A DNA stretch of 27,614 nt from a virus, in IMG/VR virus record IMGVR_UViG_3300025732_000212, positions 1 through 27,614 of that record. One strand, 5' to 3'. The number at the start of each line of letters is the position of its first letter. The stretch's first letter is position 1. Made by a program: the position numbers and the translations under genes. A model generated the notes under the pieces. It searched no databases. It saw only the letters and a list, made by a program, of their open reading frames with translations, and was not told where the DNA came from. Shown here piece after piece: positions 1 through 27,614 of this stretch.

Positions 1-3000
1 TCAGTGCTCAGGTCCGAGATGTTGTAGAACTTGTCGAGGTATCCAATGGTTTCGCCATGGATCGTCCAAGGGTACGAGTAGTGGAACCCAGTCTTTTCCG
101 GTGCCTGCTTCACGTTGACTCCAAGCAGAGCAACGACAGATCCGAATGGGACGTCAGCCAGCTCAGGATCTGCAATGTCACGGGCAATGTCTGCAGGTGA
201 GATTCCAGCAGCGGTCAGTTCCTTCGCGGTGATCGGAAGAGCCTTGCGCTGCATCTGGGTCAGCAGCGGCTCCATGTCAGCGAAGTTGAGCTGCTTGTTC
301 TGCACCGCAGCCTTCAAGTCAGCCAGTGAGTTGATCTTGCTGAACTTGTCACGGGCCGACTGCTTGATCGACTTGGCCGTCGAGTTGACGATGGCTGATG
401 ACATCGCAGCAATCTGAGAGTCCGCTGCCCTCTTGGTGATTGTTTTGGAATCAATAGCAGCCTGCATTGCCTCGATATAGGCGAGCTGGCCTGTCTGATT
501 CTTGAGATGGTTGATCGGGCTTTGAACGGTGATTCCGACAATCACGTTGCCGTTGGGATCGGCGTCCTTCTTTAGGCGACTGATAAATCGGTCGGCAGTT
601 GCCTGATCAGAGAACGCCCATCCACCACCGTTGAAGATGTTCATAAACCCGCGCCCACCTTGGCCTAGGACGCTGAGTTTCCGCTTCGCACCAGTAGGAC
701 CAACGGCCATCTCTCCGATGCCCATACGGTCAGCAGCAAGCGCAATGATCTTCCTGTCCGCGTAGTCCTCCAGCTTCACCTTGTCACTGGCAGGCATGAA
801 CCTGCCAATGTCGGCCTTGGGTATGGTGAACGTCTCGGAGTCAGGAGCTATGACTACATCCCCCGCTTGTCGAACCGTCCGGTCGGCTTGCCGGCCTTCT
901 TGGCCGCCTTCCGCGCCACCGAGAGCGCGATTGCCACGGCCTGCTTCTGCGGTTTGCCGGCCTTCATCTCCCGGGACACGTTGCTGCTGATCGACTTCTG
1001 GCTGTAGCCTTGCTTGAGTGGCATCTGCTTTCCTTTCTGCTTGGGTTTGGGTGTCGTAGATCCCGATCAGTTTGCCGTCGGGACCGTAGAGTCTGTGCTT
1101 GGCACCGCTGACGATGCGGTAGCCCTCGTCGGAGTTGATGACCGACTTGTCGCCGATGGTCTCGGCAGGCATCCAGCGCTGCTTCGAAAGCTGGTAGGCT
1201 TCCTCGGAGAACTTCGCTTTGAAGTCCATCGGAGTCATCGAGCCAACACGATCCAATCGGAAGCTGCGAACGAACTTGCTTCCGCTCTTCTCAGCAGCGC
1301 CCACGAAGTCACCGAGGAACTTGGCCTTCTCAACTCCGAAGATCTCAGCAGATCGGCGAGCGCCTTCCTTCTGGTCGAGGTTGGTGAAGTACCTCGCCAG
1401 ATCGGTCATAAACCCATCTGTGTTGCTCCACAGGCCACCGATGCTGCCATCCTTCTTCAGCAGCTTGCTCAGTTCGTTTCGGACCTTGGTGATGTCGATG
1501 GCGTTGACCACCGGATTGTCGGCCTTTGTGATCTTGAAGCTGTACGGGGAGAACTCCCGTTCGCTGACTTTGATTCCACTGCTGTATTTGGGCGAATCCT
1601 TACCAGTGAGCCTATTCCTCACTCGGCGAAGTGCTGCGAAGTAAGTGACGAACAGGCTGTTTCCGTTCTCCATTGCCAGATTGACGGCACGGATCTTGTC
1701 CTTCATCCGTGAGCTGATCGTCTGCGATTGCTCGATGGCACTGAGCTGCTCCGGACTGAACCTGCCTGTAATTTCACCGTCGACCATCCGAGCCCCCGGG
1801 ATCTTCTCGGTGATGGATCGCAACGAGGTCAGATCCTTGTCGTCGCGTGCTCGGATCTCTTCGCTGGAAAGGTTCCTGATGCTGCCATCGGGCATCTGCT
1901 CGGCCAATCCGAGATCGACCAGCTCCTTGGCTGCCAACGGGTTGGAAATGTCCTCCGGCTTCAGCACGCGGCCACCGCGGCTGTCGTCTAGCATGATCTT
2001 CTCGTCCAGCTTGCGACGGGCACGCACCAGGTCACGCAACATGGCGTTCACCTGGGGCGAGGCCTGCTTCAGATCCGGGAACAGCACCGAATCGGTAGGC
2101 TTCACGCCGAAGGTGCGCTCAATAGCCGCGGCAGCGTTGGCGATGGCCTTGCTGGCGTTCTGCGTCAGTGCGGCATCCAGAAGCTGTCTGGTGAGGCCTG
2201 AGAAGCCCTTGAGCATGGCGTCAGGCTTCTGACCAGCAATCAGTGCTGCGAAGTGCTCCGCAGCCAGCTCCGAGGCAATGTAGTCGGCCTTCTTGTTGAT
2301 CGTGTCGAACTGGGCAAGCTCTGCGGCACGCTGGGCATTTCCTGCAGCCAGCTTGTCGCGGTACTCGTTGAACCGAGCCTCAATCTCGGCGTCTGAGAAA
2401 ACGCCATCGGCCAGCTTACGAATGACGTCGCCATCCTGAATCCAGCGTCCGACAAGAGCGTTCTTGATCTCGGTGGCGCCACCTGCTAGCTGCTCGCTCT
2501 TTTCAAGAGCATGGAACAGCTCATGGCCGAGAGTGTACAACGGGCTGTCGCCTTTGCCTTTGCCGAGGATGTCGGCATTGATGACGATGGTCGGGCGGTC
2601 TCCAATCTCAACCTGCACGCCACGGGCACGGCCCTTGTACTGATCAACGAAGTCAGCGTCCGACAGGTACTTGATGTCGACATCACCGAACCGGCCTTTG
2701 ACCAGTCCTTCGACATCCATCAGCGCCGAGGCTGCATCGACGCCGTGCGTATCTCGGACACGCTCAAACAGCGCCTTGGTCGTCGGATCCTGCTGTGAGT
2801 CAATGAAGCGCCCAAGGTCGCCAGCACGGGCTTCTGCAGCAGCCTTGCCGGTGAGCTTCTGGTAAGCACGGCCACCGAGAGCACCAAGAGCACCTTGAGC
2901 AGCACCAGATCCGAGTCCAGCAGCAGCGCCTTCCTCGCCACCGGAAAGGTAGCCGAGGCCGGTTCCCAATACGGCACCCTCTAGTCCGCCAGCGGTGCCA

Positions 3001-4013: not shown

Positions 4014-5672
4014 CTATTCGAGCTTCTTGGTCAGCGGATTGTAGCGAACAAAACCAGAACGAGTCGCAGCGGGTTGCTGCTGATCAGGCTTCAACACCTC
4101 AAGCCCAATGGACTTGGCTCTTGATTCAATAGCCCTAGCAGACTTTTGCAGCATCGTCTCAAACGCCTGAATGTTGGACTTCTTCAGTGAGAAAATTGAA
4201 GTCGGATCTGGAATCACGCTATTCAGCAGCTTGAAATCTTCAGGGGTTATGGTTCCCGGACCAATGATATTGATGCGTTCAATTCCTCGAAGACCGGAAA
4301 CTAATGAGTTGGCTCGCGCCCTCACCTCAGGGGTCTGCTGCATAGCAGCACCCATTTTTGCGATGTCCAACAGTTCAGCAATGGCCTTCCGGCTATCAAG
4401 CACGTTGGAATACTGTTCTCGGAACTTGGAAGCCTCAGCTTCAGTAGGAGCAGTTCCGCGGAACTCAGGGAAGTCGATTGTCAATCCCCTGACCTTCAAC
4501 ATATCTCCAATGTTCGCCTCCTTGGCAGGAACGAACTGCTCCTTGTCACCGAAGCGAACCACAGCACCCATGTTTCCAATCTGCTCGATAGTGGTCGGCC
4601 TACGCTGACCAGCGACTTCAAGCACCTTGTCGAGGCTAGCAAACACCTCTGGATTCATGCCCTGCTGCGCCGCAAACTGGGCCATGTTCTTGCGCAACTG
4701 CTCATACGGCACCTGCTCGGTACGAGTGACAGGAGTCGTAACCTCAACCGGCGGCAAGAACTGGGCGGCAGGCTGTTGAGCAGCAGGCTGAGTGGTGAAG
4801 TCCTCACGCCGAGGCATGGTGGCAGGCTTGGCCTGAGCAGCCTGAAGCTGGGCCTGAAGTTGCTGAACTCTAGGAAGATTCTGAGCAATACGCCCAGCAA
4901 CCTGCTGCGGGGTCTCGGTGACAGTGGCTTGACCAACGGCCAAGCCTCCGCCCATGCCACCTTGCAACGAAGGAATACGGAACTGCCTAGGAGTCTCAGA
5001 GACCAACGGCTGAAGCTGGGCCAACTGGGCCTGAATGTCGGCAGCATTGACTGCAGGAGCAGTCTGCTGCTGATACTGCCTCAAAGCCTGCAGGTAGCCC
5101 TGTTCGTTGAACGTAGGCGCAGCCTGAGGCTGCATGGCAGGCTGCACAGGTCCGACAGGCTGCACCGTCTCGGTGACCTGATCGCTGACGCTCACCTCGG
5201 TAGGCATCGTCATGCCGTAGCGCATCAGCTCACCAAGCTGCTGCTGGGTGGTGATCTGGTTCTTGATCTGCTGAGTCTGAAGATCCTGCAACTCACGCGC
5301 CTTGGCCTTATCAGCCCGATCCAGATAGAACTCGGCGTTCAGCAGCGTGGCCTTCTTCTGCGGGATGGACATCGACGAGAACTTCTCGATATCGCCCAGC
5401 AACTTCGATTCGGGCGACCGATCGTCCATCACGTTGCCACTACCAGCAACTGACTGCAGGTAAGGAGCAAGCGACTCCAATCGAGCAGTCAGGAACTCGT
5501 TCTCAGCCTTGCGCTCGCCATAACGCTGCAGCGCCTGTCCGATGACATTGCCTGCCGTCTGAAGACCTTGGCCAATGGCTTCGCCACGGGACGCCATAGC
5601 CTGCAGGTAGCCCGGCGGAATGACGTTCGAAGAACCTCCTTGGAACGGTGTGGAATAGCCGTATTGAGCCAT
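4014..5672 (-). CDS. Internal virion protein, glutamine/alanine-rich, 552 residues
   Basis: The gene starts at ATG 5672, 12 bases after the preceding gene, and stops 3 bases before the giant gene. The first 60 residues are glycine/glutamine-rich and resemble the start of phage core proteins (residues 24-50 contain LQAMASRGEAIGQGLQTAGN). Residues about 60-145 look helical and charged. Residues 150-345 are a long low-complexity Q/A/P segment with repeated QAQLAQLQ-type runs. The C-terminal 150 residues are a better-ordered helical region with the stretch GLRGIERINIIGPGTITPED, which I associate with structural proteins of podo-like phages. No enzyme motif is seen. Its place between two other core-type genes argues for a DNA-ejection or inner-core role. 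This is inferred from synteny and composition only. Confidence 0.7.
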   Translation of the reverse strand: MAQYGYSTPFQGGSSNVIPPGYLQAMASRGEAIGQGLQTAGNVIGQALQRYGERKAENEFLTARLESLAPYLQSVAGSGNVMDDRSPESKLLGDIEKFSSMSIPQKKATLLNAEFYLDRADKAKARELQDLQTQQIKNQITTQQQLGELMRYGMTMPTEVSVSDQVTETVQPVGPVQPAMQPQAAPTFNEQGYLQALRQYQQQTAPAVNAADIQAQLAQLQPLVSETPRQFRIPSLQGGMGGGLAVGQATVTETPQQVAGRIAQNLPRVQQLQAQLQAAQAKPATMPRREDFTTQPAAQQPAAQFLPPVEVTTPVTRTEQVPYEQLRKNMAQFAAQQGMNPEVFASLDKVLEVAGQRRPTTIEQIGNMGAVVRFGDKEQFVPAKEANIGDMLKVRGLTIDFPEFRGTAPTEAEASKFREQYSNVLDSRKAIAELLDIAKMGAAMQQTPEVRARANSLVSGLRGIERINIIGPGTITPEDFKLLNSVIPDPTSIFSLKKSNIQAFETMLQKSARAIESRAKSIGLEVLKPDQQQPAATRSGFVRYNPLTKKLE

Positions 5673-6909: not shown

Positions 6910-7308
6910 TCAGTCTTGTGGCTGCACTCGGGTCTGGAACAAATACACGTCGCACTGCTGTCCAGCACCTGTAACGGTATCGAATGCTCTGGCAGTGATG
7001 TAGATGAACAAATACGAGTTCGCACCCGGGAACACAGACTGCACCGTGAATGGCGCTGTGTAGGTGTTGAACGCCGAGGTGTTCTCGATTGTCCTCAAGT
7101 AACCAGGTTCCGAGTTGATGTCGAACTTGATCGTCGTGGTAGGAGGAACAGGCCTGCCATAAAGGTCAGTGATCGTGATCAGCGTGACCGCAGGGTTTAT
7201 GATCGTGTTGAGACTCTCTGGGTCGAGCGTCGAGCTGTTGGAATAGATGATCGGAAACGTCGTCCCAGTCGGGACCGGCGCTCCTTCATTGAACCAGGCA
7301 GCGTGCAT
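6910..7308 (-). CDS. Putative virion protein, beta-rich, 132 residues
   Basis: The start is ATG 7306-7308, which overlaps the preceding stop as TGATG, so translation is probably coupled. The protein ([18 protein letters not shown]...) has no signal peptide. Its composition is rich in T, V, I and Y, with segments such as TLITITDLYGRPVPPTTTIK and SYLFIYITARAFDTV typical of an immunoglobulin-like or other beta-sandwich domain. The phrase ITDLYGRPVPPTT is close to the polymorphic Ig-like domains found in tail and fibre proteins. It lies between a fibre-like gene and the core genes. Family not recognised; a tail-associated or adhesion role is an inference from composition and context. Confidence 0.7.
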   Translation of the reverse strand: MHAAWFNEGAPVPTGTTFPIIYSNSSTLDPESLNTIINPAVTLITITDLYGRPVPPTTTIKFDINSEPGYLRTIENTSAFNTYTAPFTVQSVFPGANSYLFIYITARAFDTVTGAGQQCDVYLFQTRVQPQD

Positions 7309-8036
7309 CAGGCGTTGAAGTTGGCGATTTGCTTGCCGTAGACGTTCGAACCGATGCAGGTGAACACGAACAGGTCGGCCTTGTTGGCACCAGTCGTCAG
7401 CGTCGGTGTGCTTCCGGCCTGCCACTGCATCGTCTTACCGCCAGAAGCCGAGAAGGTCGCAGTCAGCGTACCTCCGGCAGTCTGCTTCACCTTCACCAGC
7501 ACGGTCTTGCCGTCGTCGTTGGCGCCGAAGGTAAGCGTGACAGCCACGTTGCCGGTAGGCGTCAGATCCCAAGTCAGGCTTGTGCCGACATTGACGGTCG
7601 GTGTGGTCGAGCTGCTGGTCTGCGGAGCCGTCGAGAGCTTGGCCGAGGTGACCGAGTTATCCTTCAGGCGGATCGTGGTTCCGCTGGTCTCAATCGTGGT
7701 CTCGTCAGGCACCAACGAAAGCAGAGTCTTGGTCTGGGCCACCGTCAGGTCGACCGGAGTCGCGCTGCTTCCGGTGTTGTTTCCCTTGATGCTGTTGGCA
7801 GCCATCGTCGCCAGTTTGGCGTTGGTGACAGCGTTGTCGGCGATCTTTCCGGTGGTGACCGCCAGATTCTGAATGGCATCAGAATTGACCGAATTAGAAC
7901 CGATGGTCAGCGTGCCGCCGTCGATGGTGCCTGTGATGTTGACCGTGGGCGTGCCAAGGAGGTTGAGCGTCGAGGCCGACAGTGTGGTCGTCGGGCTGAT
8001 CGTGGTGCCTGGGGTGACGTTTACGAAGAGTGGCAT
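7308..8036 (-). CDS. Tail-fibre-like protein, 242 residues
   Basis: The gene begins with ATG 8034-8036, 6 bases after the nozzle gene. The first half is low-complexity T/S/N-rich sequence, including [19 protein letters not shown] and [11 protein letters not shown]. This [11 protein letters not shown]-type repeat is common in phage tail fibres. [19 protein letters not shown] is also a recurrent fibre motif. The last 90 residues (from about 150) form a predicted beta domain ([20 protein letters not shown]) that resembles C-terminal fibre tip or attachment domains. It follows the adaptor and nozzle genes, the usual place for a fibre or fibre adaptor. No chaperone or enzymatic motif is seen. The fibre call is from repeats and context. 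Confidence 0.75.
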
Positions 8037-8042
8037 GGTAGT

Positions 8043-10868
8043 TTAGACGTCGTTCTTGCCGTAGAGTCGGAATGCGATGCCGATGACCTTGGCGCTGTAG
8101 ATGTCGAGCGAGCCCTGATCGGTGGTGATCAGCGGCTGCACAGAGGCCGAATGCTTGCGCAGTCGGGCCTTGTGGCTGAAGAACTGGTGCAGACCGGCTT
8201 TCCAGCCGTTGTTGCCGCATCGGAACTGGGTGGTCACCGAGTAGTCCTCGCGGTACGGGGCCAAGAAGTTGTCGCCGGTGTTGTTCGTGTTGTAGGTGCC
8301 GCTGCCGTAGGTGTAGTAGGCCGTGCGGTCCTTGGTCTGGTCGGTGGCAACCGTGTAGAACTCATTCACGCCGTCGAACTGGGCGGTGATGGAATAGCGG
8401 GTGTTCCAGTTGCCCAATTCGAACTGGATATCGGTCCACTGCTTGTGGTCGACGTTGTCCTCCCCGGTGTAGCCGCGGAACTTCACCTCGGTGCTGATCT
8501 GGGTCAGCACACCGTTGCGGTCGGCATCCACTAGACCGAGCGTGTCGAACTGATGGATCAGGCCGCTCTCATCAGCCCAGCACAGCGTATCGGTGCCAGC
8601 CACGATGACGCGGCACCAGTACTTAGGAATGAGCATCGAGCCCTCCCAGTAGCCTTCCCAAGCCTTGTTCAGGAAGTTGTAGACCAGCGTGCGCTGATTG
8701 GTGCCATCACCACCCTCGACAGGAACGCTCAGGATGTAGCGGTTGGAGAAATAGGTGCCGCAGGCGTTGCCCCAGAAGGCTTGGTCGATGTCGTCGACGA
8801 TGTTTTGGATCTGGTCGGAGAGTGGCACCACCACCGACTGGCTGATGCCGAACTCGGTCTGGCGCAGGCTGATGATGCCGCGCTGCGACAGGAAGATGAC
8901 GTCGGAGCCAGTGCCAGCGATTGAGGCCTGAGACACGCAGCCGAACTCACGGGTGATCTCGGTCAACCGGGTGGTCGACAGGTCGCCGTACAGGTTCTCC
9001 ACAGCCAAAACCGATCTCTCCTTGAACACCAGCAGCGTCGTGGCATTGAACGGATACAAGGCCACCACGCGGTCATTGCTGCCGGTGTTGAGCTTGAACT
9101 CGTTCAGCACCGGGCTGTAGTGCAGCGGATCAAGCACGTCAGAGACCGCCAAGTAGTCGTTTCCGTACAGCAACAGCAGACGGTTCTGGAAATAGAGCCC
9201 CTCGCGTCCTGGAGGAACTGAAGCACCGGATGCATTGGATCGCTTGATGCTGCCGGTGACGTTGGACGTGGTGACGTCCACCAAGGTCGAAGGCATGGCC
9301 ACTGAGGCAGTCGGCGTGGTCGAGTAGGTGCCACCATTGACGATTGTCACCGAGCTGACGATTCCATCGGTGACGGTAGCGGTCAGGCTTGCTGCAACAC
9401 TGGATGTTCCAGAGACCGTGATCACCGGGGCCGAGAGGTAGCCGGAGCCCTGGTTGAGGATAACGGCGTCGATGATGGAGATATTGGGCGACGTGCCGCT
9501 TGTGGTGAGCTGGATAACTGCTCGACTGGCGTCGTTCAGCGAATCGGTTTCCTCGGTCGTGCCAGAGAAAAGGCGCAGCGTGTTGTTGTCGACCGGATAG
9601 GCGTAGTAGATCTTGTTGGTGACGTTGGCCCCACCGTTTTCAATGTTGGACAGCGTGACCTGATCGCCCGGGATGAAGTTGTGGTTGAAGACTGCAATGG
9701 TGTCCGCGGTAGCGTCGGAACTATTGATCGACAGCGTGGACGGGATGCGATTGAAGCCGGCGTCGAGCGCAGACGGGTTGGTTGCCGTGCTCTGCATCAG
9801 GATCGGCATACCGTCGTTCAGGTTGTTGACGATGTCCTGCGCTAAATCGTAGCCGGTCGTGTTGCTGGCCAGCTCAATGTAGTAGCGAGCGTTGTTCTCT
9901 GGGTTGAGTGGCAACGAGTTGGTCTTGGCCCGAGCATCAGCAAGAGTCAGGTGGAGCGAGATCTCCTGATTAACCACGTTGACGTAGAGCTGGAAGCCTT
10001 GACCAGACCCGGGTGACGCATTCCAGAGGGGAGCAGCATCGCCAATCTGGCCGACGTTTACGATGTCACCAGTAGCCAAATCAGGCACCACATTCAGTGT
10101 GATCTCGGTGGATGCCTCTTGAGAAAGAAGGGCGTCGTTTTCACACAAGATTGCATCGTTGCCCTCGGTGTTGATTGAGTCGTAGACGATTCCAGTAATG
10201 CTGTCGAAGTAGTAGCGAGCATTCCCCGGGCGCAGCATGACCACGCCGTTGGTGGCCTGAATAAGGCGAACCGGCAGGTAAATGTCGTGTCCGTTCAATG
10301 ACACTTCCACGGGAGACTGGTTGGGCCGGATGCACCAGACCTTGCCTTGGCCACCGTCCGATGTCCGTGCCTCGTTGACTGCAACCAGCAGTGCGTTGGC
10401 TCCGGTGTCCGGGTCGCGGTAGGGCAGCACGCCGAGAATGTCCTCAAAAGGAGCGGTTGAGGCGTAGAACTGAACCGTTTTGTTGGCAGGCGACGGCGCG
10501 AAACTGAATGCCGCAGTGCTGAAGGTCGCGTTGGTGTTGTCGTCTAGCGTGCAGAGCGTGCCGTTGGAGAAGATTTGAGTGTTGGCATCGACATCAGAGA
10601 CCACTTGCGAGTTCGCAGGGATCTGAGTGCCGGATACAGGAACACCAACCGATGATCCAGAGGTGAGTGTGACAATGCGTGATCCGCTAGACCAGCGACC
10701 ACCCCACTTGGGCTGCACAATGCCCCAACGGTTCTTAATGACCTGATCCTCAAAGCGTCGGTTGACGGCATTGGAAACGTAGGAGGCAGGAATCAACGCA
10801 GGGTCAATGCGTGATACAACTCCAACGAATCCATCGTCGATTGCACCGATTTGAGGCAAGTCAGGCAT
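8043..10868 (-). CDS. Tail nozzle / tubular protein B-like, 941 residues, with beta-repeat insertion
   Basis: The start ATG 10866-10868 is one base after the adaptor stop. The N-terminal 60 residues (MPDLPQIGAIDDGFVGVVSR, then NAVNRRFEDQVIKNRWG) and residues about 560-720 (NRLLLLYGNDYLAVSD, LLVFKERSVLAVENL, IFLSQRGIISLR) match the beta-propeller type of long nozzle or DNA-stabilisation protein found in podovirus tails. It would form the distal tail tube with the adaptor. Residues about 463-527 are an insertion with two GSGY/GGTY...P repeats (ILNQGSGYLSAPVITVSG, then SVTIVNGGTYSTTPTASV), a beta module also seen in phage spikes and adhesins. No peptidoglycan hydrolase motif was noticed. The assignment rests on pattern recall, length and its place directly after the adaptor. 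Confidence 0.78.
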   Translation of the reverse strand: MPDLPQIGAIDDGFVGVVSRIDPALIPASYVSNAVNRRFEDQVIKNRWGIVQPKWGGRWSSGSRIVTLTSGSSVGVPVSGTQIPANSQVVSDVDANTQIFSNGTLCTLDDNTNATFSTAAFSFAPSPANKTVQFYASTAPFEDILGVLPYRDPDTGANALLVAVNEARTSDGGQGKVWCIRPNQSPVEVSLNGHDIYLPVRLIQATNGVVMLRPGNARYYFDSITGIVYDSINTEGNDAILCENDALLSQEASTEITLNVVPDLATGDIVNVGQIGDAAPLWNASPGSGQGFQLYVNVVNQEISLHLTLADARAKTNSLPLNPENNARYYIELASNTTGYDLAQDIVNNLNDGMPILMQSTATNPSALDAGFNRIPSTLSINSSDATADTIAVFNHNFIPGDQVTLSNIENGGANVTNKIYYAYPVDNNTLRLFSGTTEETDSLNDASRAVIQLTTSGTSPNISIIDAVILNQGSGYLSAPVITVSGTSSVAASLTATVTDGIVSSVTIVNGGTYSTTPTASVAMPSTLVDVTTSNVTGSIKRSNASGASVPPGREGLYFQNRLLLLYGNDYLAVSDVLDPLHYSPVLNEFKLNTGSNDRVVALYPFNATTLLVFKERSVLAVENLYGDLSTTRLTEITREFGCVSQASIAGTGSDVIFLSQRGIISLRQTEFGISQSVVVPLSDQIQNIVDDIDQAFWGNACGTYFSNRYILSVPVEGGDGTNQRTLVYNFLNKAWEGYWEGSMLIPKYWCRVIVAGTDTLCWADESGLIHQFDTLGLVDADRNGVLTQISTEVKFRGYTGEDNVDHKQWTDIQFELGNWNTRYSITAQFDGVNEFYTVATDQTKDRTAYYTYGSGTYNTNNTGDNFLAPYREDYSVTTQFRCGNNGWKAGLHQFFSHKARLRKHSASVQPLITTDQGSLDIYSAKVIGIAFRLYGKNDV

Positions 10869-10869
10869 A

Positions 10870-11799
10870 TCAGCGGTTGGGCACGATTATCTGCCGCACA
10901 TACTTCTCCTGAGTCGCAACCTTGTCGATCTCCTTGGTCAGCTCTACCTCTCCTAACTCAAGGAACTGGTTCCCAAGGTCGATCTTGCCGTCAACCCGCA
11001 GCATCTGGCCTGCAGCCTTCAGCGCACAGATCTCGCAGAAGCGGTACGGGAAGGCATAGGCACTAGCCTCCGCGGCGTTGGCAAGCAGCGGCGGAACCTT
11101 GCGGAACTCAAGCCACACATATGGCAGCTCGTTCTCAACGAGGATGCCGTCGTCGGTGAACGTGTAGGTGACCTCCTGTTGACGCCATGTCACCCGAGGG
11201 TCGGCAGGCCACGCAGAGAACGTCTCGCCAATGGTGACGGCTCGGGTCGTGCCATCCGGGTTGGTCGTCTGCGAGACATTGCGCAGGAACTTGTTCAGGA
11301 TGCCCCAGTAGGCCGTGTTGGTCGGGACAGTGCCGGCCGGTGCAATGGCGTAGAGCTGGTAGTACTCCTGCGTCACCGGGTACAGGACGATCTGGCCGAT
11401 GGTGTAGGACGTGGTGCTGTCCCAGTTGCCGTCACTGTTGCCGTAGGACGGTTGAGATTGTGCCCAGTAGATCGAGTTCAACGTGCCGTTGGGGCCGCCA
11501 GTGGTCGGGCTCTGACCGGCGCCCGGCGTGATGTTGACCCACTGGTAGTACTTCTCCTCGACCGGGAAGTACACCACGTCACCGGCACTGTAGGTGTCCT
11601 GGTAGGAATAGGTCGGCGCGAAGAACTCCTGCTGATACACGGTCTGCTCGGGCCAGTCGAAGCACTCCCAGGCGCTCCGTAATGACATCGAGATGAACGT
11701 GCGGAAGAAGTTGGACTCCTCGGTCGTCAGCGTAGAGAAAACGCGCCCAGTGAGCTCACAGGCGCGTTGCAGGACGTAGTCGTATGAAACGGTTCTCAT
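10870..11799 (-). CDS. Head-tail adaptor (tail tubular protein A-like) with two CBM5/12-like modules, 309 residues
   Basis: The N-terminus (YDYVLQRACELTGRV, residues 6-20) and the C-terminal helical part (FPYRFCEICALKAAGQMLRV) are typical of connector or tail tubular A proteins that join portal to nozzle. Two similar segments are inserted in between. Residues about 66-112 read SAGDVVYFPVEEKYYQWVN...IYW, and residues about 126-166 read TIGQIVLYPVTQEYYQLYA..TVPTNTAYW. This pattern (GD/GQ.V.Y....YYQ......P....YW) is the CBM5/12 carbohydrate-binding fold seen in chitinases and phage proteins. If they are exposed, the neck could bind glycans. The start is the first ATG, 6 bases after the preceding stop. 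Confidence 0.78.
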   Translation of the reverse strand: MRTVSYDYVLQRACELTGRVFSTLTTEESNFFRTFISMSLRSAWECFDWPEQTVYQQEFFAPTYSYQDTYSAGDVVYFPVEEKYYQWVNITPGAGQSPTTGGPNGTLNSIYWAQSQPSYGNSDGNWDSTTSYTIGQIVLYPVTQEYYQLYAIAPAGTVPTNTAYWGILNKFLRNVSQTTNPDGTTRAVTIGETFSAWPADPRVTWRQQEVTYTFTDDGILVENELPYVWLEFRKVPPLLANAAEASAYAFPYRFCEICALKAAGQMLRVDGKIDLGNQFLELGEVELTKEIDKVATQEKYVRQIIVPNR

Positions 11800-15105: not shown

Positions 15106-15118
15106 GTGTTTGGAGCAA

Positions 15119-16177
15119 TTAGCTCGCGCCGTTGAAGAAGCCGAAGCCCGACGGGTTTTTCACAACCAAGCCGGCAATGGCCTCGACCAACCGAGCAGGA
15201 CCGCCACCAGCGTCAGGCAGAGCCTTGACCTGCGGCAGCTTGGCATAGCGCACCTCGGCCATGTCCATGGGGATGACGTATCCCTTGTAGGCCTGAGCCG
15301 ACAGCGAGGTGCTGTTCTTGCCACCGATGAAGGTGGTGGGGTGCAGGATCAGACGGCCGAAGTCGCCTTCGAAGATGTCGATGCTGTTCTTGAAGGTGTC
15401 GTTGCCCAGCTCCTGATTGAACGTGCGCACCGAGGTGGCAGCAATCGTGTTGGTGTTGGCAACCTGGGTGGTGCCCGAGGCAGTCAGATTGGTGAACGCA
15501 CGCTTCAGCGTGGTGCCCAAGATACAATCGTAGTCGCGGAAGGTGCCGGTGTTGCCGTAGATGGCAGTCAGCACATTCTGGGCGGTAGCCTCGGTGAACG
15601 AAGCAGAGGCCGTGGTGTCGACAGCGCCGGAGGCAGGCAGGAACACCGAGCCAGAAGCGCAAGCGCCGATGTTGGAAGCGTTGGTGCTGTTCAACCAGTT
15701 ACCGAGCGATCCGGTCAGGTACGGGTTGGTGCCGTTGTCAGCCTGAGCGGCCTGGTTGGTGCACATGAAGGTCGACTCCATGTCGCGCTTAATCTGAACG
15801 AGCTGCTTGGCGATGCCGTTGGCAAGCTCATCGGTCACGCCGGCAACGTCCTGAGTCTCGGCGATGAAACCGATGCGCAGGTCGCGGCGGAAGGCCTGGC
15901 CGTAGTTGTTCAAGCGGGTCCGGTTGGCAACCGGGTTGGCAGCGTTAGAGACGGTCACATCGGTGCCGTCGACAACGCCCTGGAGAACCGGGGCGCCGTA
16001 ATTGTCGACCTGCCAAGAGAACTGCATATTCCCGAGGTCTTTGCCCTTGGGGGCCATGGACACGAACGGGGTCGACTTGGCATCGACGATGGCGATGTAG
16101 TCCGCCAGATCTTCACGAGCGGCGGAGGTGGAAGCGAGCGGCACAGAGCCGCCCTGATTGGGTTGGAGCAGAGGCAT
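15119..16177 (-). CDS. Major capsid protein, SU10/DUF5309-type HK97 fold, 352 residues
   Basis: The N-terminal third has the hallmark layout of this capsid family: LADYIAIVDAKSTPFVSMAP, then WQVDNYGAP...EGVDGTDVTVSN-like text (residues about 55-80), then RTRLNNYGQAFRRDLRIGFI and a helical segment with VQIKRDMESTFMC. The C-terminal part contains DYDCILGTTLKRAF and RLILHPTTFIGGKNSTSLSA, typical of the HK97-fold P- and A-domains. It follows the scaffold gene by 2 bases, with AAAGGA about 10 bases before the ATG giving a good ribosome site. It is the largest highly expressed head gene and is followed by a strong terminator. The family name is from recall, but the function is well supported by order and motifs. 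Confidence 0.88.
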   Translation of the reverse strand: MPLLQPNQGGSVPLASTSAAREDLADYIAIVDAKSTPFVSMAPKGKDLGNMQFSWQVDNYGAPVLQGVVDGTDVTVSNAANPVANRTRLNNYGQAFRRDLRIGFIAETQDVAGVTDELANGIAKQLVQIKRDMESTFMCTNQAAQADNGTNPYLTGSLGNWLNSTNASNIGACASGSVFLPASGAVDTTASASFTEATAQNVLTAIYGNTGTFRDYDCILGTTLKRAFTNLTASGTTQVANTNTIAATSVRTFNQELGNDTFKNSIDIFEGDFGRLILHPTTFIGGKNSTSLSAQAYKGYVIPMDMAEVRYAKLPQVKALPDAGGGPARLVEAIAGLVVKNPSGFGFFNGAS

Positions 16178-16179
16178 GG

Positions 16180-17205
16180 TTAGAACATCCTTTTCAGTAA
16201 TTGAGCCAGTTCACTTTGACTCCCGGTCTTCGAAAACTTCGACTTTGCCTGCTGCAGGCCGACCGCAGCCGCATCCTTTTTCACAGGAGCAGCAGTAGGT
16301 TTGCCCGGCTGACTCGGCGCCTTCACGATGGGCTTCACCGCGGGTTTCCCCTTCGATGCCTCCAACCGCAGCTTCCGGCCAGCGATGAAATCGCCGATGA
16401 GCACCTGGTACTCTGGAAGGCTTGAGAGCTGCGGCAACTGCCGCAACACCGTCTGCGCTTCCGTGTACTCGGTACTGGCACGGTCCTTCCACCAAGGATA
16501 GAGCTGCTCGGCCACCGGCTTGATCTGCTGATAGTTCTGCAAGAATCTCGCACGATTTGGGATATGCAGATCCAGCGCATCTTCGACACGCCTCTTGATC
16601 TGCTTCACCTCATCCGCGCTGTACTCCCTGCCGTCTACTTCGCAGCCGTCGATATTGTCCTCGCACCACCGCTTCAGGTTCCGGGCTTTGCTCCACTCAT
16701 CGTTGAGTTTGGACGCATCCCAGACATCAGCGAATGGGTCGTTGGACGCCACCGAAGGCACAGGCCGCTCGGCTTGAGTCTGCTCCAGCTTGCTCTTGGC
16801 GTCGTTGAGTTCACGCTCTAGCGCCTCGGCCTTCTCCAGCGCCTCTTTCTTCTGGCGCGTGAGCTTGTCGATACGCTTACGGAAGCCCAACGACTCGTCG
16901 TTGTCTTCGGATTCCGAAAGAACTTCATCAGGCGGCTCGGCCTGACTCTCCGTTTCTTCAGCGGTCGGTTCCGCTGCCTGTTCCTCGTCCGCACTCGCGG
17001 CCATAGGCTCAGGCTCCGACTGTTCAACGGACTGCTTCGCCTTCTCTTCCTCCCCGCTGAATCTTGACTTCAGCAGCTTCGCCAACGCCGATTCGTCGAA
17101 CTGCATCGGGTTGAGTGGGGGCCGTTCCGTGTTTTGGGCAGGTTGCGCTTCCTGTGTCGTATTCGGGATGTCCATGCTGTTTTGACCCTGCAAGCCGGGT
17201 ATCAT
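16180..17205 (-). CDS. Scaffolding protein, acidic coiled-coil, up to 341 residues
   Basis: It lies between portal and capsid genes, where scaffolds sit. Residues 50-105 are strongly acidic and disordered (PEPMAASADEEQAAEPTAEE). Residues about 107-150 form a charged coiled coil (KRIDKLTRQKKEALEKAEAL). The C-terminus is basic (LAQLLKRMF after a lysine/proline-rich linker), the usual capsid-binding end of scaffolds. The longest frame starts at ATG 17205 with little upstream ribosome site. A second ATG at 17175 (MDIPNTTQEA) has AGGG about 10 bases upstream and may be the true start. There is no protease motif, so it may be a re-usable scaffold. Confidence 0.82.
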   Translation of the reverse strand: MIPGLQGQNSMDIPNTTQEAQPAQNTERPPLNPMQFDESALAKLLKSRFSGEEEKAKQSVEQSEPEPMAASADEEQAAEPTAEETESQAEPPDEVLSESEDNDESLGFRKRIDKLTRQKKEALEKAEALERELNDAKSKLEQTQAERPVPSVASNDPFADVWDASKLNDEWSKARNLKRWCEDNIDGCEVDGREYSADEVKQIKRRVEDALDLHIPNRARFLQNYQQIKPVAEQLYPWWKDRASTEYTEAQTVLRQLPQLSSLPEYQVLIGDFIAGRKLRLEASKGKPAVKPIVKAPSQPGKPTAAPVKKDAAAVGLQQAKSKFSKTGSQSELAQLLKRMF

Positions 17206-17255: not shown

Positions 17256-17498
17256 TCAAGAATGACGAGAAGTCAAATCTTTCTCACTTCTGAGCGAGCT
17301 TATTAGCAAGCTCAAATCTTGTATGGCAGCAGCCCTGCCGCAGTTGTATGCGCGGTCCTCGGCTGACAGGTTAGGCAATATAGCAGAACGACTCTCGTCC
17401 TCTGACGTATCTGCAATGATCTGCAGGAATGCCGCAATTACCGGGTGCTCGTCGGATACAGACAGAGCCTCGGCCAGTTGTTCTTGGTTGAGTTTCAT
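17256..17498 (-). CDS. Small protein after portal, 80 residues
   Basis: The start codon overlaps the portal stop (ATGA, 17495-17498). The product is MKLNQEQLAEALSVSDEHPV, then an acidic helical segment, AEDRAYNCGRAAAIQDLSLL and a polar tail. Helix-rich and without membrane segments, it resembles small proteins that lie between portal and scaffold in podovirus-like phages. The AYNCGRAAAIQDL stretch is typical of those. Function unknown; possibly assembly-related. Confidence 0.7.
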   Translation of the reverse strand: MKLNQEQLAEALSVSDEHPVIAAFLQIIADTSEDESRSAILPNLSAEDRAYNCGRAAAIQDLSLLISSLRSEKDLTSRHS

Positions 17499-19579
17499 TG
17501 CACTCCGAGGCGGCCAGTGACCGCATTCTGCTGTTGCTGAACCGAGAACTGCAGGTTCTCGATGTACTTCTGCAAGTTAGCTTGGAAGAGCTGATCCTGC
17601 TGCAACTGGGCCTGATACTTCGGATTGCTCGCCAGCACCTGCTGTGCGAATTGCAGGCGCATAGCAGCCGTCGGGTCGTTCTCACGCAGCATCGGGGGAT
17701 TTCCGAGGCTGATGAGCGCAATCTCGTCGTTGGTCTCGCCGAACATCTTCTGGGCAGCCGGTCCCTGCTGCATGACCAGCTCGCTCGCAAGGTTGGGGTC
17801 GATGCTGCGCAGGGCCACCGAGATCAACTTGGCCCGGTCGATGACGCCGGCAGTGTCGAGAGGCAGCACCAAGGTGCTGATGGCCTTGAGCTTCTCGGTC
17901 ACCAGGTCGGTCGACAACTCGCGGATGTCGAACTTCAGCATGACATCGAAGTCCTGCACGTTCTCAGGCAACTGCGTGGTGGAAGCCGTGATGCGCATGA
18001 TCTCCGCTGGCCCGACGTACTGCAGCGTCAAGGCAAGCACCTGCCGGAAGGCCTCGGTCCACCCGTGCAGCCAGTTGTTGATCAGGCGCTGCTGGCGCAT
18101 CTGGGTGACCGCAGGCGGCACCTTCTCGGTGGGGCGCCCGAAGTACCGATCGGTCTGGGCCATCACCGAGTCGATCAGGTTGAAGGCAACACCAGGCTCC
18201 CGGGCGGGAGGCGCTAGGAAGCCGATCTCGCCGCGGCGCAGCACCGGCACCTGCACGGCCGGCCCAATCTTCAGGTTGCCACCACGAGTCTTCGGAACCT
18301 CGATGGGCGGCAGCGTCGCCAAGCTGGTGTAGTCGAAGATCGAGTCGCGCTGGGCCTTCACCTCGTGCTGCCAGGTCGAGCAGATATCGGGCACGCCGCG
18401 GCTCTCGGTGATCTGACGATGCACCACCTCCGAACGCCACACCACAAATGGATACTGACCGTGCGAGTATTCCAGAGCTTCGAAGTAGCCCCACTTGTCG
18501 CCCACCTGAGGGCTGAACACCGTGTAGAACACGCCCGGGATACCGTCTGAATCCACAGCCTTCTGGTAGGCGTAGCAGACCTCGATCAGGTTCTCGCGGT
18601 CGAGCAACGAGTTCTCAGCCAGTCCAACGCTGTACGAGAAGTCCGAGTAGTCGCTGAAACGGCCCATCGTGTTGATGGCCTCCTGCGCCCACTCGCGGTC
18701 CCAGCCCTCGACATCGACCTTGTTCAGCAACTGCGCCTCGGTCATGTAGAACCGGCGGAAAATCACCCGGGCCGACTGGATATCGGTGGTCTCCGGCGGG
18801 AAAACCAGCTCGTCCCACGGCGCCAAGGCCGCGATCATCGGCTTGTTTGTAACCATCGTGGGCACCGGGAAGTCACACTCGCCCTCGTCGCGCAGCTCGC
18901 GCACAGCCTTCAATGCCCGACGCTTCTTCAAGTTGGGGAAGGCAGCCATCAGCAGCTCCGCGGACTGGTCGTCGGCCTCTGGATTGGCGATCAGGTTGGG
19001 CAGATCAGCCAGAACCGAGCCCTCTGGCGACTGCGCAGCCAAGGCCATCACCTGGTCCATCGTCAGGTACTGCTCCTTCTGCCCAAGCTCCTGCTGCCAG
19101 GTGACGTGAACACCTGCCCACCCGTAGGTCCACAGGTACTGCGACAGCAGCTCTACCTCACGGGTCAAATCGTTGTACATCCGGGCGTTCATAGCCCAGT
19201 CCATCAGGTTGTGAGCGGTCACAGCCTGATCCAACTGGCTGACGTTGGTAGGGGAAACCCGCAGCATCGAGCGCCAGAATGACGTCGAGCACAGATCCAC
19301 AAGGCCATTGATCACCTCATCGGCCAACGGGATGCGCGTGTCGCTAGCACCATCCCAAGGAAACGCCGGCTTGTTCCGGTTGGCGTCATTCCACTTCTTG
19401 CCGTCGTCGGTCTGACCAGCCCACCGGCAGTACCGCACCTGCTCGACACGGTCGATCCTAGCGAAACATCCGTAATCGGTAGCACTGCGCCGCAACTCCT
19501 CGGTCAATGCAGGCACATTTGGCTCCTCGCCGACCCGGGCCATCACGTCTGTCGCCGTCTTGTAGGAATCTCCTTGCAT
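17495..19579 (-). CDS. Portal protein (head-tail connector), 694 residues
   Basis: The gene follows the large terminase by 11 bases. The length fits large portals of podoviruses. The early part has RYCRWAGQTDDGKKW and the W..A.D.R.PL.D..I..LVDL..TSF pattern (residues about 65-105). The middle (residues about 385-430) has YPFVVWRSEVVHRQITESRG, then VPDICSTWQHEVKAQRDSIF, the typical portal 'stem' region with RG.P....  .HE.KA.RDS. The C-terminal 100 residues are glutamine-rich (QQVLASNPKYQAQLQQDQLF), as in portal barrel or crown regions. It would form the dodecameric channel for packaging. There is a credible ATG start after TerL. Confidence 0.88.
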   Translation of the reverse strand: MQGDSYKTATDVMARVGEEPNVPALTEELRRSATDYGCFARIDRVEQVRYCRWAGQTDDGKKWNDANRNKPAFPWDGASDTRIPLADEVINGLVDLCSTSFWRSMLRVSPTNVSQLDQAVTAHNLMDWAMNARMYNDLTREVELLSQYLWTYGWAGVHVTWQQELGQKEQYLTMDQVMALAAQSPEGSVLADLPNLIANPEADDQSAELLMAAFPNLKKRRALKAVRELRDEGECDFPVPTMVTNKPMIAALAPWDELVFPPETTDIQSARVIFRRFYMTEAQLLNKVDVEGWDREWAQEAINTMGRFSDYSDFSYSVGLAENSLLDRENLIEVCYAYQKAVDSDGIPGVFYTVFSPQVGDKWGYFEALEYSHGQYPFVVWRSEVVHRQITESRGVPDICSTWQHEVKAQRDSIFDYTSLATLPPIEVPKTRGGNLKIGPAVQVPVLRRGEIGFLAPPAREPGVAFNLIDSVMAQTDRYFGRPTEKVPPAVTQMRQQRLINNWLHGWTEAFRQVLALTLQYVGPAEIMRITASTTQLPENVQDFDVMLKFDIRELSTDLVTEKLKAISTLVLPLDTAGVIDRAKLISVALRSIDPNLASELVMQQGPAAQKMFGETNDEIALISLGNPPMLRENDPTAAMRLQFAQQVLASNPKYQAQLQQDQLFQANLQKYIENLQFSVQQQQNAVTGRLGVQ

Positions 19580-25675: not shown

Positions 25676-26986
25676 CTATCGTCCTGCTTCCTCGTCGTCT
25701 AGCTCTCTGATGAGCGTGCAAAACGCTCTGTGCGCTGTTGCTGGGACAACACCGTTACCGAGCAATCGGAGTTCATCCGTTCTATTGTCACAGGAGACGC
25801 ACAACTGGGCATAGTCCATCCCACTGGAAGGCCCATCAGGGTCTCCACCCAGCGGGGGTTTAGCTTGCCGCATCCCATCGCCTTGGCTTCCGCTTCCGGT
25901 AGCATTGACGCTAGCTTCTCCCGATTCCCGGCTCCACCCGCAAGACCGGTCGGGCCTCCCGTCACTCCCGATGACGCTGGAGTCGGCCACGTCTCGGACT
26001 TCATCTGATTGCTCAGACCCACCTGCCTCGACTTGTCGCTCCTCCTGTCGCTCGCATCCGGTGTCGACCAGCTCTTCACCTGTTGATCCAGCTTGTCGAT
26101 CATGCTCCCGTCCTTCTGCCTGTGCGCTCCGGTCGATACCGTGGCTGTCTGCCACAACCCTTGGCGGCTCCCATCCGTACTGCTGCTCGCCGGGACGGCT
26201 GGGCCATGCTGCTTCACCACCACCGTCGTCAGACTCTCCTGACTCCCCTTCATGCCTCTGGAGCGATCCTGAAAGCCCTGCCGCACCTCCGAGGCTACTG
26301 GCGAGGGCCAGTTTTGAGCTATCACCGCCGTCGTCAGAGTTGTGTCGAATGTGCCTTTCGGAATGGATATTTTCTCCCCCTGTTTGTTGTATCGGTAGTT
26401 GACCTGATGATTCGCCCCGTTTTCCGCATAAGACTGAGTCGCTCCATGACCTTGCCAACTTTCCCCGTGCCGAACTGTAGGCCAGGATGAACACCCGCTT
26501 GCGCTGGTGCGGTGCGCCGACTTCAGACGCGCTGAATATGCCCCACGTCGTTCTGTAACCCATTCTTGCCAGGTCTTCGATGACGTCGGACAGCCCCAAG
26601 CTGATATGTCCTTCGACGTTCTCAAAGAAGCAGATTCGGGGTCTGAGAAGTCGAATGCCATCTGCAATCCACGGCCACAGGTGCCGCGGGTCTTGCTTTC
26701 CTTTGCGCTGACCGGCTGCGCTGAAGGGTTGGCATGGATATCCCCCAGTGAGGATGTCCACGCGGTCACGAAAGTCCGACCAAGGGAAGGTCTTAAGATT
26801 CGGCCAGATAGGTGCCGGGTCCATGAATCCCGCTTCCATTTTCGCAACCAGATTGCTGATGGCGAAGGCTTCGATCTCACAAAGAGCGACTGTGCGCAGA
26901 TCTGGGATTGCTCGTTGGAGTCCAAGCTCAATGCCTCCGTATCCAGCGCACAGGCCAATGTGTGTAACTGACGAGGTAGAATCCAT
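25676..26986 (-). CDS. C5-cytosine DNA methyltransferase, 436 residues
   Basis: The motifs appear in the canonical order: motif I GLCAGYGGIELGL (11-23), motif IV GGYPCQPFSAAGQ with catalytic Cys85, motif VI FENVEG (121-126), motif VIII QRKRVFIL (161-168) and motif X LRLLGNGVVPATAHRAF (406-422). It methylates cytosine in DNA, perhaps protecting against host restriction. The target-recognition region (about 170-400) is low complexity (LAYSSARGK, LALASSLGG, VVADSHG, VADSSVIG), a pattern I recall from phage Dcm proteins. A second frame covers the entire gene. The ATG is 5 bases after the ATG of the other frame, and both follow one AGGA. The 3' part therefore deserves scrutiny as a dual-coding or frameshifted region. 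Confidence 0.85.
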   Translation of the reverse strand: MDSTSSVTHIGLCAGYGGIELGLQRAIPDLRTVALCEIEAFAISNLVAKMEAGFMDPAPIWPNLKTFPWSDFRDRVDILTGGYPCQPFSAAGQRKGKQDPRHLWPWIADGIRLLRPRICFFENVEGHISLGLSDVIEDLARMGYRTTWGIFSASEVGAPHQRKRVFILAYSSARGKLARSWSDSVLCGKRGESSGQLPIQQTGGENIHSERHIRHNSDDGGDSSKLALASSLGGAAGLSGSLQRHEGESGESDDGGGEAAWPSRPGEQQYGWEPPRVVADSHGIDRSAQAEGREHDRQAGSTGEELVDTGCERQEERQVEAGGSEQSDEVRDVADSSVIGSDGRPDRSCGWSRESGEASVNATGSGSQGDGMRQAKPPLGGDPDGPSSGMDYAQLCVSCDNRTDELRLLGNGVVPATAHRAFCTLIRELDDEEAGR

Positions 26987-26991
26987 GTCAT
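25699..26991 (-). CDS. Overlapping full-length frame over the methyltransferase gene with WPTP repeats, 430 residues
   Basis: This frame opens at ATG 26989-26991 and runs 430 codons with no stop, in +1 register to the methyltransferase. It is not random text: it has four related repeats (SSWPTVRHGE at 168-177, NWPSPVASEV at 227-236, SWSTPDASDR at 307-316, TWPTPASSGV at 334-343) followed by KLNPRWVETLMGLPVGWTMP (376-395). I recall the WPTP...KLNPRWVETLMG layout from proteins annotated as DNA methyltransferase C-termini or hypothetical proteins in environmental phages. AGGA lies 5 bases before its ATG, better spaced than for the methyltransferase ATG. Whether it is translated, fused by frameshifting, or the relic of an ancestral frame is undecided. 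Confidence 0.5.
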   Translation of the reverse strand: MTWILPRQLHTLACALDTEALSLDSNEQSQICAQSLFVRSKPSPSAIWLRKWKRDSWTRHLSGRILRPSLGRTFVTAWTSSLGDIHANPSAQPVSAKESKTRGTCGRGLQMAFDFSDPESASLRTSKDISAWGCPTSSKTWQEWVTERRGAYSARLKSAHRTSASGCSSWPTVRHGESWQGHGATQSYAENGANHQVNYRYNKQGEKISIPKGTFDTTLTTAVIAQNWPSPVASEVRQGFQDRSRGMKGSQESLTTVVVKQHGPAVPASSSTDGSRQGLWQTATVSTGAHRQKDGSMIDKLDQQVKSWSTPDASDRRSDKSRQVGLSNQMKSETWPTPASSGVTGGPTGLAGGAGNREKLASMLPEAEAKAMGCGKLNPRWVETLMGLPVGWTMPSCASPVTIERMNSDCSVTVLSQQQRTERFARSSES

Positions 26992-26998
26992 GGTGTTC

Positions 26999-27614
26999 CT
27001 AGTAGCTAGGCATCAGAACATCCGCCACCTGCTGCGTGAGCTTCACGTCCTGCAGACAGTAGTCGATGGCTGCCTGGCGGTTGGTCTTCCACAGGTTGGC
27101 GAAGTCGGCGCCGTTGCCGCTCTTCTCCCCGAGCCCTAGGTGCCTGCTGATGGCTCCGAGGCTTCCGTGGGCACGGTTGTCCCCAAGCTGCCACACCTCG
27201 CGCAGGTCGACGATCAGGTCGTTCCAGTAGCGGCCGTGGCGTATCCAGTAGGGAACGGCGACACGATGGCGCCAGCTCCTCTTGATCAAAAACGGCAGGT
27301 CGAAGGCCTTGCAGTTGAACCCAATGAGGCGCGGCTGGCGTTCCCAGGTGTTCAGCAGCTCCCACCATTGCCGGAGCATGGCGGCCTCGCCGTCAGCGTC
27401 TGACGACAGGATTGCAGGCTCGTCGCGCTCGAGGCGGTAGCCTATGCACAGCACTTGGCCGCTCAGTGCATCCAAGGCAGCGTTCTTGATGTAGTCGGTG
27501 ACGTGGTTCTCCTCGGCCTGCCGGATACGCTCGGCGATCTTGTCGGGATCTTTGGTGTTACCGAGCTTCACGTCGCTGGGATTGAAGGCCGGGATGACAA
27601 GCTCGCCAAACGGG
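26999..27614 (-). CDS. 3'-5' exonuclease, DEDDy/DnaQ-like (5' end outside window)
   Basis: The frame is open to the right edge, giving the C-terminal 204 residues. A GTG at 27571 is not the real start, because the in-frame upstream text PFGELVIPAFNPSDVKLGN continues the family pattern. Motif II is IGFNCKAFDLPFL (N and FD acidic site), and motif III is DYCLQDVKLTQQV (tyrosine and aspartate of DEDDy). Motif I (DxE) must be outside the window. It removes 3' nucleotides, probably as a stand-alone proofreading or recombination nuclease near replication genes. The HGSLGAISRHLGLGEKSGNG segment is typical of phage members. It ends 7 bases before the methyltransferase-locus ATG. Confidence 0.85.
   Translation of the reverse strand, partial: PFGELVIPAFNPSDVKLGNTKDPDKIAERIRQAEENHVTDYIKNAALDALSGQVLCIGYRLERDEPAILSSDADGEAAMLRQWWELLNTWERQPRLIGFNCKAFDLPFLIKRSWRHRVAVPYWIRHGRYWNDLIVDLREVWQLGDNRAHGSLGAISRHLGLGEKSGNGADFANLWKTNRQAAIDYCLQDVKLTQQVADVLMPSY

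Follow-up and report, generated by a model that had tools for sequence, protein, structure and literature searches.

A locus on the minus strand of the viral contig analysed here (27,614 nt, hereafter the window) carries two reading frames that overlap almost completely, and both are conserved. They very probably encode the two polypeptides of one C5-cytosine methyltransferase. ORF A would supply the catalytic chain and ORF B, in the +1 frame relative to A, the specificity subunit; the two would assemble, and the phage DNA would be methylated. Dual coding of the locus is well supported. The view that B is a subunit of the same methyltransferase as A is strongly supported by the distribution of the motifs over the two frames and by homologues in which both parts are joined, and B is most likely the DNA-recognition half of the enzyme.

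Two overlapping frames and their conservation

ORF A (25676..26986, minus strand; alpha-like) encodes a catalytic C5-cytosine methyltransferase chain of 436 residues, which matched PF00145 (E = 1.7e-31) and phrog_363 (E = 2.3e-56) and whose AF2 model resembles M.HhaI. ORF B (25699..26991, minus strand; beta-like) encodes 430 residues and matched phrog_1008, labelled 'DNA methyltransferase', with E = 1e-20. No family was matched by B in Pfam or NCBIfam and no relative of its profile was found among solved structures; when the DNA of the locus was compared with phage records by blastn, short catalytic-motif matches alone were returned. The shared translation start lies at 26984..27000 (minus strand), where a single AGGA (27000-26997) precedes both ATGs, that of B at 26991 and, 5 nt downstream, that of A at 26986. 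An earlier, sequence-only reading of this DNA had described two frames open over about 430 codons and two ATGs 5 bases apart behind a common AGGA, and both descriptions were confirmed.

Viral contigs were scanned for relatives with B and, independently, with A. The best 80 of 262 relatives were kept from the former scan and the best 80 of 134 from the latter, which combined to 151 loci, about 80 of them distinct and half picked via A alone. Both frames were open in all 151 loci, at identities falling to ~44% for A and ~36% for B, and the third frame over A held 10 to 35 stops (mean 18). The sequence-only reading had proposed to look for stops in B among relatives and to ask whether homologues of B overlie a methyltransferase frame: no stop was found, and B lay +1 to A in every locus. 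The same reading had offered a recently frameshifted gene as one possibility. This is refuted, since ~80 viral loci have kept the arrangement as they diverged and it is likewise conserved in many bacterial phyla. Much the same holds for a decaying frameshifted methyltransferase gene or an error of sequencing or assembly. The motifs of one enzyme are indeed spread over two frames, and two loci, L178 and gp69/gp70 of phage Jarcob, are plainly frame-swapped; however, an identical register in ~80 distinct viral loci, in cultured phages and in genomes of many phyla, with no stops in either frame, makes decay or error scarcely credible. Both were rejected on the conservation of the arrangement.

Synonymous shuffling of A led to an expectation of 5.1 stops per locus in the B frame, and shuffling of B to one of 11.4 stops per locus in the A frame; none was observed in either frame in 78 loci. 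For the catalytic region alone, the expectation was 2.75 B stops, and the probability that a locus has none was 3%; again, none occurred in the 78 loci. The stop codon of B falls within the region from motif IX to motif X, as expected for the end of B.

To estimate selection, each change within 68 sequence pairs was classed as synonymous or nonsynonymous for A and for B, and the pairs were bootstrapped; the ratios are NN/SN and NS/SS for A and NN/NS and SN/SS for B. In the catalytic region, dN/dS was 0.23 and 0.11 for A and 0.63 (0.56-0.70) and 0.30 (0.26-0.35) for B, the intervals here and below being approximate because sequences recur among the pairs and the counts are pairwise rather than phylogenetic. 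In the module/linker region, B with 0.58 (0.49-0.65) and 0.51 (0.40-0.67) was under stronger constraint than A with 0.89 (0.83-0.94) and 0.78. The IX-X region gave 0.30 and 0.41 for A and 0.32 and 0.44 for B. The +1 frames of three neighbouring genes served as control and yielded 0.84-1.01 and 0.55-1.00, a baseline that is itself slightly below 1 (SN/SS down to 0.55). The B values fall under those of the control frames, and selection on B over the catalytic domain is moderate. These counts show that both frames are under purifying selection, which answers for A and B alike the question of codon-position constraint that the sequence-only reading had raised.

Could B nevertheless be an accidental open frame, stop-free merely through the G+C content and the conservation of A? 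Part of the similarity of B over the catalytic domain does derive from the conservation of A, and the control +1 frames lie slightly under neutrality. An accident does not, however, account for the stops that the shuffles led us to expect and that are missing in 78 loci, nor for a module region in which B is constrained more than A. Furthermore, the dual arrangement holds at the low G+C of Paenibacillus phages, in which the B frame is closed except for its nested ORF, and single-chain homologues read the C-terminal half of B in frame. We hold an accidental frame to be highly improbable and rejected it on the selection seen in the module and motif IX regions.

Division of the motifs between A and B

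Residues 1-187 of A (26426..26986, minus strand) form the folded catalytic large domain with motifs I-VIII, modelled by AF2 with a pLDDT mostly of 75-95. PCQ lies at 84-86, ENV at 122-124 and QRKRV at 161-165, and the motif residues (I, IV PCQ, VI ENV, VIII) are nearly invariant among 69 homologues. Residues 190-400 (25787..26419, minus strand) follow as a disordered linker (pLDDT ~30) of ~210 residues, which reads through the DNA of the B module array and motif IX. Confidence returns in a helix at 401-435, which bears motif X as LLGNGVVP at residues 408-415 (25742..25765, minus strand; helix pLDDT 87-90, LGNGVVP invariant). Compared with M.HhaI, the A model gave a Z of 18.8 over 194 aligned residues (5..436 on 10..327). 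Model and comparison together identify A as a large domain without a folded small domain or motif IX. The linker, with a near-neutral dN/dS of 0.78-0.89, yet never interrupted by a stop, behaves as expected if it is merely read through to motif X. Among the features of a PF00145 methyltransferase, the catalytic large domain and motif X are thus present in A, whereas motif IX and the putative target-recognition region between VIII and X are absent from A and present in the +1 frame, in B. The statement of the sequence-only reading that A carries all catalytic motifs including X is borne out for I-VIII and X; motif IX has to be taken out of it.

In B, the N-terminal part (residues 1-169, 26485..26991, minus strand) overprints the catalytic domain of A. 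It is open in all loci, has a dN/dS of 0.63 / 0.30, and no known counterpart of it was found. Residues 170-376 (25864..26484, minus strand) comprise five modules headed by W-x-[TS]-x, putatively for target recognition, with boundaries at 170-227, 228-279, 280-307, 308-334 and 335-376 and with WPTV, WPSP, WQTA, WSTP and WPTP as unit heads. The array is followed at residues 377-392 (25816..25863, minus strand) by LNPRWVETLMGLPVGW, a nearly invariant segment of B which we assign to motif IX. Its counterpart in a single-frame homologue from a Pyramidobacter MAG (L363) sits between VIII and X and was aligned by HMMER, weakly and collinearly, to residues 273-289 of M.HhaI, the motif IX of that enzyme. 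AF2 returned a poor model for B alone (pLDDT 51, pTM 0.24). Four WPTP-type repeats plus a further motif had been noticed in B beforehand. Repeats and LNPRWVETLMGLPVGW stand, with the correction that there are five W-x-[TS]-x units and that one of them is literally WPTP; what had been missed is that B provides the missing part of the small domain, motif IX together with an array at the corresponding position.

Among relatives, B mostly holds 1-7 units with a median length of 36-37 aa, varying in order and number, and strict parsing of 29 B proteins distinguished 14 recurrent module types. The module string differs in 49 of the 50 pairs whose catalytic DNA is at least 93% identical. The units thus shuffle, and they are located between VIII and IX, as are the modules of the single-frame ShiLan gp70; shuffling and location suggest that they are target-recognition modules, and a multispecific array is a plausible reading of B.

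Both frames might also be translated with B acting on its own, for instance as a regulator or a restriction inhibitor, and not as a methyltransferase subunit. An N-terminal half without known counterpart or solved relative would suit such a protein. But B carries the motif IX that is missing from A, and single-chain homologues unite the two families, so that we judge an independent B to be quite unlikely.

The position of the motifs bears equally on a programmed +1 frameshift from A to B past motif VIII, by which catalytic domain, array and motif IX would be made as one fused polypeptide. The product would resemble natural single chains, namely gp70 of mycobacteriophage ShiLan and L363. However, since I-VIII are in A, IX in B and X in A again, a second shift would be needed to return to motif X. 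A shift past motif VIII would not need B to be open across the whole catalytic region, and B has an ATG of its own. In all 72 relatives that could be scored, this ATG precedes the A start by 2, 5, 8 or 11 nt, and an SD-like motif lies before it in 44 of the 72 (in other subfamilies, the B start is located inside A). The paired ATGs favour two initiations off one ribosome-binding region over frameshifting, which we regard as very improbable. Programmed frameshifting, another suggestion of the sequence-only reading, is not required here and would demand two shifts; true dual coding, suggested alongside it, is supported by the conserved open frames, purifying selection in both and the conserved paired starts.

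In the two-chain reading that we prefer, ORF A would give rise to an alpha chain in which a disordered spacer connects the SAM-binding catalytic large domain (I-VIII) to motif X. ORF B, begun 5 nt upstream at the same ribosome-binding region, would give rise to a beta chain that constitutes the small domain, with the variable recognition-module array and then motif IX. Provided that B is translated and binds A, alpha and beta would join as one active enzyme. This enzyme would methylate the phage's own DNA, most likely as an anti-restriction modification, and module swaps in B, if the modules do serve recognition, would change or add target sequences.

Joined forms and known two-chain enzymes

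Five arrangements were distinguished among the loci. In the window type, A holds I-VIII and X, and B the modules and IX. In a second arrangement, A holds I-VIII, and B the modules, IX and X (L175, L189, L194, L221, L333). Gordonia and Rhodococcus phages (L156, L157, L160) represent a third, with I-VIII, IX and X in A and the LPTP array alone in +1; the motif split is thus not uniform. All parts are in one frame in the fourth (ShiLan, L363, L197), and the frames are swapped in the fifth (L178, Jarcob gp69/gp70).

In ShiLan gp70, a single frame encodes the catalytic domain, the LPTP modules and motifs IX and X; the protein matches the families of both A and B, phrog_363 (E = 4e-79, residues 1-385) as well as phrog_1008 (E = 2e-61, residues 196-388). 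Its catalytic domain is homologous to A, its LPTP array and motif IX to B. Unlike the window, it keeps everything in one frame save two further LPTP units. These still stand in the +1 frame, their DNA being read in the A frame as a VADA-type linker, and they suggest that the ancestor of ShiLan gp70 had two frames, which an indel in the array joined. In L363, too, I-VIII, IX and X are all in one frame. In Mycobacterium phage Jarcob, a frame change near motif VIII divides a ShiLan-type single chain in two (L162:1986-3156), and gp69 and gp70 are annotated as two DNA methyltransferase genes. In L178, the frames are swapped past motif VIII; the N-terminal part of A leads into the C-terminal part of B, and vice versa.

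A wider reading has, in our view, about even chances: a very widespread class of phage and bacterial C5-methyltransferases would be obligately dual-coded, with a shuffling array of recognition modules in the subunit read from the alternative frame, cassette exchange would have to keep both frames open, and single chains such as ShiLan gp70 would have arisen by frame fusion. If this is true, new specificities are gained through in-frame exchange of module cassettes with two frames kept open.

The sequence-only reading, right about dual coding, missed that a two-polypeptide precedent exists in M.EcoHK31I (YGGCCR). Lee, Kam and Shaw reportedly found in 1995 that the frame of the EcoHK31I small subunit is nested in the large-subunit gene in a different frame; a second ORF overlapping the first in another frame is what is observed here. 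According to PMC3404938, M.EcoHK31I is composed of two polypeptides: motifs I-VIII, X and, by prediction, the recognition domain belong to the large one, motif IX to the small one. The window likewise has I-VIII and X in the large chain and IX in the second. Unlike in M.EcoHK31I, B covers nearly all of A, the starts are 2-11 nt apart and B exceeds 400 aa. A multi-module array in B occupies the recognition position, whereas the recognition domain of EcoHK31I is predicted in the large subunit; the middle of A is here disordered and near neutral. By its matching motif split and overlap, the locus is EcoHK31I-like in organisation and probably in function. With the loci found here, the EcoHK31I oddity of 1995 becomes a general architecture.

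M.AquI (CYCGRG), described in PMC3404938 as having I-VIII separated from IX-X in two chains, is like the window in that the catalytic motifs I-VIII and motif IX belong to different chains. A minority of loci (L175, L189, L194, L221, L243, L333) is M.AquI-like in that A stops before IX and B carries IX, sometimes with X. Unlike M.AquI, the window keeps motif X in A, and A reads through the whole module array of B. In multispecific phage C5-methyltransferases of the SPR and phi3T type, exchangeable recognition domains of ~40 residues are said to be arrayed between VIII and IX, as described by Trautner et al. in 1996. The array in B, whose modules recur and shuffle among relatives, occupies the same position; that of the multispecific enzymes lies in the catalytic chain and frame, that of the window in the +1 frame. 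What sets the window apart from M.EcoHK31I is an overlap over the full length, starts that nearly coincide and, as it seems, a recognition array placed in B; the two-polypeptide type itself is known but obscure.

Occurrence and annotation

A frame-blind DNA pattern for the LNPRWVETLMGLPVGW-type motif IX was scanned over viral contigs and genomes, and catalytic domains were detected by HMM. Among the matches listed, 74 viral loci had a detectable catalytic domain; motif IX was in the +1 frame relative to it in 73 of them, and A spans IX in 67. For 74 bacterial-genome loci, the corresponding numbers were 72 and 69. As the pattern selects one motif IX class, these fractions describe that class among the matches listed and not all C5-methyltransferases. 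The genomic loci include Pseudomonas, Kluyvera, Lelliottia, Paenibacillus, Lachnospiraceae and Treponema as well as MAGs of Verrucomicrobia, Planctomycetes, Nitrospirae, Anaerolineales and Gemmatimonadetes, and many of them may be prophages. A plasmid search returned five records only. To our knowledge, overlaps of ~200 to >400 codons with both proteins conserved are rare and usually deemed curiosities of small viruses. Here, such an overlap recurs in phages with dsDNA and in the genomes of bacteria from many phyla, and the pair mostly goes without annotation.

Our literature search for overlapping or alternative-frame methyltransferases found none. In PHROGs, phrog_363 and phrog_1008 are both labelled 'DNA methyltransferase' and entered as two families, and nothing in the entries seen marks them as overlapping halves of one locus. 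Paenibacillus phage Tadhana, cultured and low in G+C, has B as a nested ORF (TADHANA_55) whose frame is closed to either side of it; A and B alike are annotated there as cytosine methyltransferase, and the Tadhana B is matched by 71 phage records. A few Paenibacillus phages list both the A and B genes. Two cytosine methyltransferase genes are listed in a P. larvae phage genome paper, in which no comment on an overlap was found.

Gene callers often retain one frame only, as in RefSeq E. coli (without B) and Alfacinha3 (B only). The annotation of many phage cytosine methyltransferases may therefore lack the specificity subunit, and a methyltransferase of this kind would appear inactive or untypable if cloned alone. 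In Acidovorax phage Alfacinha3, gp46 (L158:2005-3171), annotated as a cytosine-specific methyltransferase, is the B frame, and the overlying catalytic A has no CDS. A homologue of the Lelliottia locus L392 is present in E. coli (NZ_CP090448.1:1254490-1255205) and three other genomes, where a DNA cytosine methyltransferase is listed under the match and no separate B-frame gene; in two genomes, an Ea22-like protein is additionally listed there.

Elsewhere in the window, the minus-strand ORFs 17495-19579, 4014-5672, 10870-11799 and 16180-17205 (694, 552, 309 and 341 aa) had no PHROGs match at E 1e-5. Two further long frames on the plus strand are probably compositional: a 357-aa ORF at 15110-16183, antisense to the major head protein gene, and a 401-aa ORF at 7329-8534, antisense to the minus-strand ORFs 8043-10868 and 7308-8036.
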